64,000 bases of DNA, from positions 1 to 64,000 of the forward strand of contig NZ_PQMG01000003.1 in NCBI RefSeq assembly GCF_008930665.1, in the 5' to 3' direction. Each line of letters opens with the position of its first letter. Within the stretch, counting starts at the first letter, position 1. This document shows positions 2,771-60,344 of this stretch, piece after piece. Source of the stretch: Corynebacterium sp. 74A (GTDB lineage: Bacteria; Actinomycetota; Actinomycetes; Mycobacteriales; Mycobacteriaceae). The translations under genes and the position numbers were made by a program. The notes under the pieces were generated by a model, which saw nothing but the letters and a program-made list of their open reading frames with translations, did not search any database and was not told the DNA's origin.

Positions 2771-2812
2771 GCTACTACGCATTAGAGTTGCGCGAGATGG
2801 CGTCGTCACGCG
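2771..2812 (+). repeat. Word-1 copy followed by a degenerate word-2 copy
   Basis: GCTACTACGCATTAGAG (2771-2787) is a full copy of the recurrent word with core ACTACGCA. Five bases later, 2792-2812 matches the second word except for four bases (GTCGTCACGCG in place of GTCGATAAGCG). It fills the middle of the ligA/exonuclease spacer. Confidence 0.8.
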
Positions 2813-2857
2813 TCCAGCCCGAACCGCACGTGGCGACCTAGTGTCCGGTGCGCAGTT

Positions 2858-2863
2858 TAAGCT
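2858..2863 (+). promoter_or_regulatory. Candidate -10 of the exonuclease gene (leaderless)
   Basis: TAAGCT, 8 bases before the ATG at 2872, with no Shine-Dalgarno between. The same hexamer in the same context (TTAAGCTA) stands before the AMP-ligase gene at 45850. Confidence 0.45.
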
Positions 2864-2871
2864 AAGTAACC

Positions 2872-3543
2872 ATGAACCACTTCGATCCGCAGAACATGCT
2901 CACCTTCGACCTTGAGACCACCACCAATGACCCCATGGAGGCGCACATTGTCACCTCCGCGATCGTCTCCATCAAGGGGCGCTCGGTGGAGCCGCTGGAG
3001 CTACTCGCCGATCCAGGCGTGCCGATTTCGGAAGCCGCGACGAAGGTGCACGGAATCAGCACCGACTATGCCCGCGAGCATGGCCGCCCGCACGATGAGG
3101 TTCTGCGTGAGACCATCGACCGGATCTATCAAGGCTGGTCCGATGGCCAAAGCCTCGTGGTCTTCAATGGCACCTTTGACCTGACGATTCTGCGCCAACG
3201 CTCCCAAGACTTCGTCATTAAAGGCCTGGTCTATGACCCGTATGTGATTGACAAAGCCAAAGATCCCTATCGCAAGGGCCGGCGCACCCTGGGCAGCCTG
3301 TGCGAGTTTTATGGGGTGCGACTCGACAACGCCCACGAAGCCACCGCCGATGCCCTCGCCGCGGCGCGCATCGCGTGGAAGCAGCTGCGCATGTGGCCCG
3401 AGCTGGCGCAGATGGACGCCGATGAGCTTATGGAACAGCAGGCCGTGTGGTACTACGAGCAACAATCGAGTCTGAAGAAATACCTCGATAGCCGCGGCAA
3501 GGACTCCTCCACGGTGTCGACCGTGTGGCCCATGCGAGGCTAG
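2872..3543 (+). CDS. DEDDh 3'-5' exonuclease (DnaQ-like)
   Basis: A 223-residue exonuclease of the DNA polymerase III epsilon/RNase T type. The acidic motifs are all visible: Exo I in TFDLETT (about residues 12-18), KVHGIS, Exo II in FNGTFDL (about residues 99-105), and Exo III with its histidine in NAHEATADALAAAR (about residues 154-167). It stands alone, without a polymerase domain, so it may proofread, repair or trim RNA; sequence alone does not say which. The start is probably leaderless. Confidence 0.88.
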   Translation: MNHFDPQNMLTFDLETTTNDPMEAHIVTSAIVSIKGRSVEPLELLADPGVPISEAATKVHGISTDYAREHGRPHDEVLRETIDRIYQGWSDGQSLVVFNGTFDLTILRQRSQDFVIKGLVYDPYVIDKAKDPYRKGRRTLGSLCEFYGVRLDNAHEATADALAAARIAWKQLRMWPELAQMDADELMEQQAVWYYEQQSSLKKYLDSRGKDSSTVSTVWPMRG

Positions 3544-57481: not shown

Positions 57482-57486
57482 GGCCT

Positions 57487-58824
57487 TTAGCGTCCTTCCA
57501 AACGGATTACGCTGCGGATGGTACGCACAGCGTCGAGTTGCTTAATGGCATCCACGGTGGCGGCCAGATCCGCCTCGGTGGCGGAGTGGGTGACCACGAT
57601 CAGACGTGCATGGTCCTCGAACTCCTCTTGGCGCACGGTGCGGATCGAGATCTTGTTCTCGGCGAACTTAGTAGCGATCTCGGCGAGCACGCCCTCCCGA
57701 TCCTGAACTTCCATATCCACGTGATAGCGGGTGCGCACATCGCCGAAGCTAGCAATGGGCAGATTGGCGTAGGTGGACTCGCCCGGGGCGCGACCGCCGT
57801 GCACCTTGTTTCGGGAGGCGCCCACAAGATCACCCAGCACCGCGGAGGCGGTAGGCGCACCGCCGGCACCATTGCCGTAGAACATGAGACGACCAGCGGC
57901 CTCGGCTTCAACGAAAATGGCGTTGAAAGACTTGTTCACGCTGGCCAGCGGGTGCGAACGCGGGATCAGCGTGGGGTGCACGCGGGCGGCGATCTCCTCC
58001 ACGCCCTTATCGTTGGTAAATCGCTCACACACGGCCAGCAGCTTGATGATGTAGCCGGCATCCTTGGCGGCCGCGATATCGTCAGCGGAGATATCGCTAA
58101 TACCCTCGCAGTACACGTCATCCGCGGTGACGCGGGTGTGGAAAGCCAGGGAGGCCAAAATGGCGGCCTTGGAGGCGGCGTCGTGGCCCTCAACATCAGC
58201 CGTGGGATCGGCCTCGGCATAGCCTAAGCGGGTGGCTTCGGCGAGCATGTCGTCGTAGTTCGCCCCCGTGGAGTCCATGCCGTCGAGGATGAAGTTGGTG
58301 GTGCCATTGACGATGCCCATCACCAGCTCCACCTGGTCGCCGGCGAGCGAGCGACGCAGCGGGCCCACCACGGGGATAGCGGCGGCCACAGCGGCCTCGA
58401 AGTACAGATCCACGCCAGCGGCATCGGCGGCCTCGGCAAGCTCGGCCGAGTGGGCGGCGACGAGCGCCTTATTGGCGGTCACCACGGACTTGCCGGCACG
58501 CAGTGCGGCGAGGACCAGCTTGCGGGGGTAGTCGATACCACCGATAACCTCCACCACAATGTCCACATCGTCTCGGGTGATCAGAGACATAGCGTCGGTG
58601 GTGAGCAAATCTCGGGAGACGGCGTCGGCGTGCTTCTCAATATCAGAGACGGCCACGCCCTTCAGCTCCAGCGGGCCGCCAATGCGGTGCTCGAGAGCAT
58701 CGGCGTCCTGCTGCATAATGCGCAGCACTTCGCTTCCGACGGTGCCGTGCCCCAGAATCGCGACGCCAACCGGTGAGCCAGCGCCCTTCCCGGGCTTGAA
58801 GGTTACGGGTGCGTTCTCAGACAT
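57487..58824 (-). CDS. hom: Homoserine dehydrogenase
   Basis: Reduces aspartate semialdehyde to homoserine, 445 residues. The dinucleotide loop is ILGHGTVGSE, and MGIVNGTTNFIL and the ACT domain (VQDREGVLAEIATKFAENK, about residues 361-379) are typical; the ACT part mediates threonine feedback in C. glutamicum. The start ATG at 58824 has AAGGGGA 10 bases upstream. Confidence 0.97.
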   Translation of the reverse strand: MSENAPVTFKPGKGAGSPVGVAILGHGTVGSEVLRIMQQDADALEHRIGGPLELKGVAVSDIEKHADAVSRDLLTTDAMSLITRDDVDIVVEVIGGIDYPRKLVLAALRAGKSVVTANKALVAAHSAELAEAADAAGVDLYFEAAVAAAIPVVGPLRRSLAGDQVELVMGIVNGTTNFILDGMDSTGANYDDMLAEATRLGYAEADPTADVEGHDAASKAAILASLAFHTRVTADDVYCEGISDISADDIAAAKDAGYIIKLLAVCERFTNDKGVEEIAARVHPTLIPRSHPLASVNKSFNAIFVEAEAAGRLMFYGNGAGGAPTASAVLGDLVGASRNKVHGGRAPGESTYANLPIASFGDVRTRYHVDMEVQDREGVLAEIATKFAENKISIRTVRQEEFEDHARLIVVTHSATEADLAATVDAIKQLDAVRTIRSVIRLEGR

Positions 58825-58991
58825 GGATCGATATTCCCCTTAAGAATTATTTCTGTCTGTTGTCAGTGTTGGGCGGATAGCTACAGCATCCGCGCTGGGC
58901 GGGCGCAGCGTGAGGCAAGTATAAACCTCCGCCGCCGCGATCGCCGTGGGTGTGTCCCAGGCCTCAAGGACGCTGGATGGGACGCTGCGGG

Positions 58992-60344
58992 CTAGGAGCC
59001 GGTGGTATTTTCCAGCGCCAAGATGTCCTCCACGGTCTCACGGCGCACCATGAGCTTGGCTTCGCCGCCGCGCACGCTCACGATCGGCGGGCGCAAAAAG
59101 GCGTTATAGCGGCTGGACATCACATAGCAGTACGCGCCGGTGGCGGCGATGGCGAAAAGATCGCCACGACGCAGGTCATTCGGATAGGAGGCCTCATTGA
59201 TCAGGATGTCGCCCGACTCGCAGTGCGCGCCCACAATGCGGGTGCTGGTGTTCTCACCCTCGGCGAAGCGATCGACCAGGCGGCCATCATAGGCGGCGCC
59301 ATAGAGGGCGGGGCGAATATTATCGCTCATCCCGCCATCGACGGCCACATAGCGGCGGGTGGTGTCCGCGTCCACGTGCACGTCCTTCACCGAGCCCACC
59401 TCATAGAGGGTGACGGTCGATGGTCCCGCGATAGCGCGACCCGGCTCCACCTTCACCGAGGGCGCAGGAATTCCCAGCTCGTCGGCACACTCGGCCACTC
59501 GACCGATTAGGTCGGCGGCCACCTCGCGCACATTGAGCGGCTCTTCCTCTTCGGTGTAGGCGATGCCATAGCCGCCGCCGAGATCCAGCACACGCAGCTC
59601 TGCGGTGTCCGCAGCGGGCAGCTCATCATGTAGTTGCTTGAACAGCCCCAGCACACGCTCGGCCGCCACGGAGAAGCCATCGGCGTCGAAGACCTGGGAG
59701 CCGACATGGCAGTGCAGGCCGACTAGGCGCAGGTTTTCGGCGCGCACGGCTGCACGCGCTGCCTCCATAGCGGAGCCGGAGGCGAGGGAGAAGCCGAACT
59801 TCTGATCCTCGTGAGCGGTGGCGATGAACTCGTGGGTGTGGGCCTCCACGCCGGGCTTCACGCGCACCAACACATCCTGGACGTGGCCGGATGCGGCGCT
59901 GAGCTCATCGAGTAGTTCCAGCTCATCGGCATTATCCAGCACCACGGAGCCCACCTTCTCGCGAATGATGGCGCGCAGGAAGGCCACGGACTTGTTATTG
60001 CCGTGGGCGGTGATCCGCGCGGCGGGGAATCCGGCTGCAAGCGCAATCTGCAGCTCTCCGAGGGAGGCCACGTCCATGCATAGCCCCTCCTCATCGACCC
60101 AGCGCGCCACGGTGGCGGTGAGCAGCGCCTTCGATGCGTAGTGCACGTTATGGCCGCCGCCGAAAGCCTCGGCCATATCGCGGCAGCGGCTACGGAAATC
60201 GTCCTCATCGATGACATAACACGGGGTGCCATAGGTCTCCGCGATCTCGGGAAGCGGCACACCAGCAATGGTGACCACGCCGTCGTCTTGGCGCATGGCG
60301 TTGCGCGGCCACACGTGGGAGGGAATGCTGTTGAAGTCGTTCAT
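58992..60344 (-). CDS. lysA: Diaminopimelate decarboxylase
   Basis: Last step to lysine, 450 residues. The PLP lysine is in VHYASKALLT (about residue 73), with GGGYGIAY, CESGD and YNAFLRP. The ATG at 60344 is used. A word-1 core (60135) codes HYAS before the PLP lysine. The spacer to hom (58825-58991) shows nothing obvious. Confidence 0.97.
   Translation of the reverse strand: MNDFNSIPSHVWPRNAMRQDDGVVTIAGVPLPEIAETYGTPCYVIDEDDFRSRCRDMAEAFGGGHNVHYASKALLTATVARWVDEEGLCMDVASLGELQIALAAGFPAARITAHGNNKSVAFLRAIIREKVGSVVLDNADELELLDELSAASGHVQDVLVRVKPGVEAHTHEFIATAHEDQKFGFSLASGSAMEAARAAVRAENLRLVGLHCHVGSQVFDADGFSVAAERVLGLFKQLHDELPAADTAELRVLDLGGGYGIAYTEEEEPLNVREVAADLIGRVAECADELGIPAPSVKVEPGRAIAGPSTVTLYEVGSVKDVHVDADTTRRYVAVDGGMSDNIRPALYGAAYDGRLVDRFAEGENTSTRIVGAHCESGDILINEASYPNDLRRGDLFAIAATGAYCYVMSSRYNAFLRPPIVSVRGGEAKLMVRRETVEDILALENTTGS

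Follow-up and report, generated by a model that had tools for sequence, protein, structure and literature searches.

Why should one 8-bp word recur dozens of times within a single stretch of a Corynebacterium chromosome? The question is raised by the start of contig NZ_PQMG01000003.1 (C5) of Corynebacterium sp. 74A (genome G000), whose positions 1-64000 form the window analysed here, 64 kb in all, and the word is ACTACGCA, the core of an 18-bp site. Copies of this site gather around gene A, which encodes an HNH protein of the DUF222/13E12 type (13E12 being a name of the DUF222 HNH family), and the site is likely to be the DNA binding site of that protein. Words of this kind are gene-centred, paralog-specific and conserved.

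The window contains 44 copies of ACTACGCA, 20 on the plus and 24 on the minus strand, as compared with 0.98 ± 1.11 (largest value 5) in 100 dinucleotide shuffles, and no other 8-mer in this DNA is as over-represented (44 copies against 0.7 expected under an order-2 Markov model). A preliminary description of this DNA had listed 43 cores, on both strands and in genes as well as spacers, against a chance expectation of about 2; every one was confirmed at its position and one more was found, at 2069-2076 on the minus strand. The sites are given below, with genes called by a simple script of our own and no gene finder.

Before position 1: contig C11 joins on at the left end of the window and carries HNH gene A, about 7.8-9.2 kb outside the window
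2062-60145, no strand: window part of the ACTACGCA cluster, densest in the left 25 kb
2062-2079, minus: 18-bp site, core 2069-2076, overlooked in the preliminary description
2771-2788, plus: 18-bp site, core 2774, between predicted genes, near consensus
4126-4143, plus: 18-bp site, core 4129
4431-4448, minus: 18-bp site, core 4438
5600-5617, minus: 18-bp site, core 5607
6155-6172, plus: 18-bp site, core 6158, between predicted genes, full consensus
6612-6629, minus: 18-bp site, core 6619
7109-7126, plus: 18-bp site, core 7112
7652-7669, minus: 18-bp site, core 7659, opposed pair with 7681-7698
7681-7698, plus: 18-bp site, core 7684, opposed pair with 7652-7669
8208-8225, plus: 18-bp site, core 8211
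8606-8623, plus: 18-bp site, core 8609
9730-9747, plus: 18-bp site, core 9733
10059-10076, minus: 18-bp site, core 10066
11316-11333, minus: 18-bp site, core 11323, between predicted genes
12079-12096, minus: 18-bp site, core 12086, opposed pair with 12144-12161
12144-12161, plus: 18-bp site, core 12147, opposed pair with 12079-12096
13857-13874, minus: 18-bp site, core 13864
14604-14621, minus: 18-bp site, core 14611
15267-15284, plus: 18-bp site, core 15270
16094-16111, minus: 18-bp site, core 16101, between predicted genes, full consensus
19373-19390, plus: 18-bp site, core 19376, between predicted genes
19583-19600, minus: 18-bp site, core 19590, between predicted genes
20561-20578, plus: 18-bp site, core 20564
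22025-22042, minus: 18-bp site, core 22032
22224-22241, plus: 18-bp site, core 22227
22754-22771, minus: 18-bp site, core 22761, weak flanks
24088-24105, minus: 18-bp site, core 24095, between predicted genes, full consensus, opposed pair with 24198-24215
24198-24215, plus: 18-bp site, core 24201, opposed pair with 24088-24105
24576-24593, minus: 18-bp site, core 24583
26307-26324, minus: 18-bp site, core 26314
30161-30178, minus: 18-bp site, core 30168, weak flanks
33638-33655, plus: 18-bp site, core 33641
34925-34942, plus: 18-bp site, core 34928, between predicted genes
36724-36741, minus: 18-bp site, core 36731
37873-37890, plus: 18-bp site, core 37876, between predicted genes, full consensus
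41679-41696, minus: 18-bp site, core 41686
50626-50643, plus: 18-bp site, core 50629
51937-51954, minus: 18-bp site, core 51944
52807-52824, minus: 18-bp site, core 52814, between predicted genes
55122-55139, plus: 18-bp site, core 55125
55915-55932, minus: 18-bp site, core 55922
56147-56164, plus: 18-bp site, core 56150
60128-60145, minus: 18-bp site, core 60135

Alignment of 106 sites of this genome with 103 sites of a close relative, C. ciconiae DSM 44920 (G085; LigA identity 92%, the others among the matches listed from 242 genomes of the genus reaching at most 72%), gave the 18-bp form GCTACTACGCA(G/T)CAGAG(T/C), with little conservation outside it. The longer form proposed earlier comes close to this consensus. 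Its partial self-complementarity is present but weak, since the position needed to complete AGTAG is C in 70 of the 106 sites and T in only 13.

The window proved to be one flank of a larger cluster. In the whole 74A genome, ACTACGCA occurs 223 times and the reversed word 95 times, and longer forms outnumber their reverses as well (TACTACGCA, 86 versus 23; GCTACTACGCA, 53 versus 3). The copies are not restricted to the window, but their excess is local and not spread over the whole genome. About 360 kb (contigs C11 and C10, C5:1-117 kb and C1:1-137 kb) holds 67 of the 86 copies of TACTACGCA, and no 8-mer is more enriched than ACTACGCA in the cluster region (122 copies in 222 kb) when this is set against samples from elsewhere in the genome (11 copies in 160 kb). 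Alignment to C. ciconiae orders the contigs as C5 reversed, C11 reversed, C10 and C1. That species carries a matching cluster around the orthologous HNH gene, with 69 of its 80 copies of TACTACGCA between 923 and 1,297 kb.

A peak-plus-background fit placed the centre at 1,096 kb in C. ciconiae (95% bootstrap interval 1,082-1,103) and, taking the C5/C11 junction as 0, at +3.4 kb in 74A (-5.6 to +12.4), just outside the window. The 20-kb windows richest in sites make up a plateau in 74A, between -15.3 and +17.9 kb. HNH gene A lies inside both intervals (1,098,371-1,099,795 in C. ciconiae; C11:9,235-10,641, or +7.8 to +9.2 kb, in 74A), which contain further genes as well. Word density is 1.0 per kb within 2 kb of the middle of gene A, a stretch partly made up of the gene itself, 2.5 per kb at 2-5 kb, and still elevated, at 0.3 per kb, at 40-80 kb. 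An opposed pair of sites stands directly upstream of gene A in both species, 24 and 23 bp apart. In C. ciconiae, ABC-transporter-like genes adjoin gene A (C1:1094846-1098136) and have no counterpart there in 74A; they already hold copies of the word at 1095465, 1096177 and 1096881.

A 13-bp form, TACTACGCAKCAG, is present in 35 and 50 copies in 74A and C. ciconiae, respectively, and among the other 240 genomes of the genus in one copy in 12 and in none in 228. No cluster of the word was found at the corresponding locus of two further genomes, G113 and G045 (200 kb each), and the 18-bp pattern, compared with a wider contig collection from which own or near records may have been excluded, gave three single matches in unrelated records.

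If the word belongs to the gene, paralogs should have different words around them. Both 74A and C. ciconiae carry four more paralogs elsewhere on the chromosome (genes B to E; at most six matches per genome were scored), and A, B and E each have a local word of their own. In C. ciconiae, CACTACTG is clustered at gene B (26 of 49 copies in 1.2 Mb lie within 30 kb), and AGACAGCG (28 of 69) and GACAGCGA (28 of 80) are clustered at gene E, with matching words at the B and E orthologs of 74A; a cross table of words and genes places each word at its own gene. Genes C and D had no clustered word in C. ciconiae or in their 74A orthologs. Counted over the whole genome, 26 of 76 copies of CACTACTG lie within 12 kb at gene B, the word being infrequent overall (the reversed word has 110 copies), and the form WGACAGCGAT places 19 of 23 copies within 15 kb at gene E in C. 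ciconiae and 14 of 21 within 14 kb in 74A, with 1 and 2 copies of its reverse, respectively. Beyond 10 kb from their genes, words B and E are almost absent. When all 8-mers were ranked by their densest 20-kb window, ACTACGCA, CACTACTG and GACAGCGA were the top three in the scanned DNA of both genomes, the scanned stretches having been picked around HNH genes, and parS, a positive control, ranked fourth in C. ciconiae.

The words are also conserved where they stand. Of 134 word A sites compared between the two species, 23 were unaligned. The others were 91 coding sites, 57 of them with an identical word and none with a gap in the core, and 20 intergenic sites, 16 of them identical; for anagrams of the word the identical shares were 28% (coding) and 32% (intergenic). 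Words B and E were identical at 18 of 22 and 21 of 23 sites (anagrams, 33% and 29%). Intergenic sites are 3.5 times denser than genic ones and nearer the consensus, and the greater degeneracy of coding copies is expected of selected sites arising by point mutation. Where two sites lie no more than 120 bp apart, they usually point in opposite directions (9 of 11 pairs in 74A, 13 of 15 in C. ciconiae); tests of this by distance bin were weak (p 0.04-0.38), and the opposed orientation is suggestive only.

The protein encoded by gene A has an HNH domain (PF01844, 30.1 bits; Pfam cut-off 21.4), and Pfam scans of the A proteins of both species returned HNH families alone up to E 10, with no ParB N-terminal (CTPase) domain. 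DUF222 (PF02720) was not matched in protein A by Pfam, and is a precomputed assignment for P0019, which is gene B of C. ciconiae, and P0018, which is 98% identical to gene E of 74A; genes B and E align with A over their length. Structure models predict a ParB/Noc-like DNA-binding fold in two paralogs. The layout predicted for the protein is a helix-turn-helix domain of this type (about residues 43-197) ahead of an HNH nuclease domain (about 341-434), and the His, Asn and Cys residues of the HNH region are kept in 10 of 10 sequences. Other searches gave little: a best E of 0.0072 against PDB sequences, nothing under 0.001 with Foldseek against PDB and viral structures, no PADLOC match for A and B and two weak ones for E, and NCBIfam matches all far below cut-off. 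A database search returned protein A at high identity from these two species alone (99 and 83%), the next match reaching 51% over 13% of its length. REP13E12/HNH endonuclease/DUF222 is among the repetitive elements listed in PMC10589994. The DUF2220 of PMC10123090 is a different family from DUF222, and PMC9416677 deals with a mycobacterial HNH nuclease that may or may not belong to this family. The literature searched, including PMC2830990, PMC7383237 and PMC10589994, yielded neither a link between DUF222/13E12 HNH proteins and a DNA word, such as that described here, nor a function for proteins of this type.

How such a gene might come to be surrounded by its word can be outlined as follows. 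The HNH protein would bind its own word through the first, ParB/Noc-like domain, and each paralog would have its own word, as ParB has parS and Noc has the Noc-binding site (NBS). A site would be useful only near the gene, through physical nearness or genetic linkage: either the protein would act mainly near its place of synthesis or, as we prefer, the sites would be inherited together with the gene. Words would accumulate around the gene and thin with distance because a site would help only when close. Nicks made by the HNH domain in a bound word or next to it would turn the neighbourhood into a recombination hotspot, and gene and words would spread together as a homing-like, self-favouring neighbourhood. 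On this tentative proposal, DUF222/HNH proteins may be self-addressed nucleases with a ParB/Noc-type domain, each paralog seeding its own word nearby and driving exchange of the neighbourhood, and may form a new class of selfish element. Were this true, a selfish element would be rewriting tens to hundreds of kb of core genes with its own address.

The main rival is an organiser of the ParB type. Here the protein would bind the words and bridge or condense the local chromosome, in the manner of ParB, Noc or MatP, its HNH domain being structural or rarely used. The tight packing of the sites, comparable with that of parS in C. ciconiae (six parS-like sites within 13.4 kb at C1:2550300-2563726), the predicted fold, the clustering around the gene of the putative binding protein at A, B and E, and the presence of sites on both strands, in genes and in every type of spacer all agree with such a role. 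ParB and Noc are related proteins with diverged site specificity (PMC7383237). However, the retention of the nuclease residues sits poorly with an organiser, the B and E clusters, at about 10 kb on each side, are small for chromosome architecture, the paralogs occupy unrelated positions, and cluster A is centred about 160 kb from the dif-like site. The system further differs from ParB and Noc in that no CTPase domain shows in the two A proteins and an HNH domain follows the predicted DNA-binding part, in that the words are more numerous, word A being non-palindromic and elevated out to 40-80 kb, and in having three paralogs with three words. An organiser is considered possible but rather unlikely. 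Two points favour nicking with recombination: the conserved nuclease residues, and the fact that the clusters, two of which are very small, go with multi-copy genes and not with chromosome landmarks. A terminus macrodomain of the matS kind, marked by some other protein, would account for many short, strand-balanced sites in one region of the terminus half of the chromosome, extending past the dif-like site. The dif-like sites lie at syntenic positions (C1:48903-48930 in 74A; C1:1256417 in C. ciconiae). With the fitted centre so far from dif, where site density is low, the site set is not terminus-centred; MatP (PF06303) was found in neither genome, with a positive E. coli control, the site is no palindrome, and clusters B and E lie elsewhere, all of which makes this explanation very improbable.

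The preliminary description had likened the word to DNA-uptake sequences, and a word that is short and common, stands on either strand, occurs inside genes as well as between them and is conserved in two species would indeed suit uptake or self-recognition, or a mark sparing neighbouring DNA from the nuclease. Uptake words are spread across whole genomes. Word A, in contrast, is concentrated at one locus with an HNH gene, and the paralogs have different local words, so that the likeness fails and such a function is improbable. Proliferation of a small mobile element copied in near its source has the least to recommend it: the decay with distance from one locus and the opposed pair upstream of gene A would fit, but unlike REP-like mobile repeats the sites have no copied flanks, nothing much being conserved outside 18 bp, and the ungapped coding cores and their greater degeneracy speak against it as well. 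A strand-polar signal of the type of FtsK-orienting polar sequences (KOPS) or architecture-imparting sequences (AIMS), already doubted in the preliminary description, was rejected, as word A shows no strong bias along the replichore (65 plus and 59 minus sites in C. ciconiae from 0.90 Mb to the dif-like site). A transcription-factor regulon was likewise rejected: the sites stand on both strands, inside genes and in spacers of all three kinds (tandem, divergent and convergent), and so are not promoter-bound. With HNH homing endonucleases the system shares a free-standing HNH gene and, on the preferred view, a homing-like function. A homing enzyme has one or few target sites, whereas here tens surround the gene in the host genome.

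Across the genus, matches to the HNH A family occur in 225 of the 242 genomes searched (E <= 0.001), mostly several in each, with as a rule at most six matches scored per genome; up to 43 first-look candidates were noted in one genome. At 5 of 28 HNH loci from other species (2.9-4.4 kb), 8-12 copies of CTCCATAA or a near variant were found (z 7.8-12.2), while z was at most 6.0 at the remaining 23 and likewise at 10 LigA loci from other species. In G044, 50 of 60 copies of CTTATGGA in the 80 kb examined lie within 20 kb of the HNH gene, and CGCTTATGGAR, present 57, 29 and 107 times in the whole genomes of G044, G096 and G155 (reversed word, 5, 3 and 5), forms dense groups at the HNH gene in all three, for G155 among the matches listed. 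A second, looser group of 10 CGCTTATGGAR in G044 (C1:2685667-2735766) is far from the HNH gene at 71-72 kb. In wide regions of G226, G116, G006, G152 and G045, no word stood out clearly from the controls (within 6 kb the best z was 4.4-6.6, as against maxima of 5.8-7.2 at control positions, a repetitive gene of G226 excluded). With 23 of 28 loci and these five regions lacking a clear word, a local word is visible for only some members of the family. A group of 15 copies of TCACAGAA in G226 (C1:250247-254870) was rejected as a local word, its regular spacing on one strand probably reflecting a repetitive protein gene. In-frame stops had been noted in some of the HNH matches; among the loci read again, one inside the match was seen only in L085 and L087, at the end of the conserved C-terminal part of the family.

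With four words each around its own gene, the DNA itself appears to name the targets of these proteins, whose specificity is thereby directly testable with purified proteins and oligonucleotides, and the paralog-word pairs form a natural series for studying the evolution of DNA recognition. The findings also suggest that a single gene can write a short word into the coding sequences of the unrelated core genes around it, dozens of them, which bears on how codons are chosen, on evolution at the local scale and possibly on recombination in Corynebacterium.

The window holds a second word, CGTCGATAAG (longer form GCGTCGATAAGC), in 13 copies at 3849, 4845, 8013, 15316, 19410, 22041, 23164, 24113, 32886, 33171, 45516, 53352 and 60443. 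It is over-represented in C. ciconiae, G113 and G045 also, and the five HNH genes show no concentration of it. Of the sampled stretches of the 74A genome that measure at least 18 kb, all but that from contig C7 contain its 11-base form. The reverse of this word, CGCTTATCGACG, resembles CGCTTATGGA, the local word of other species.

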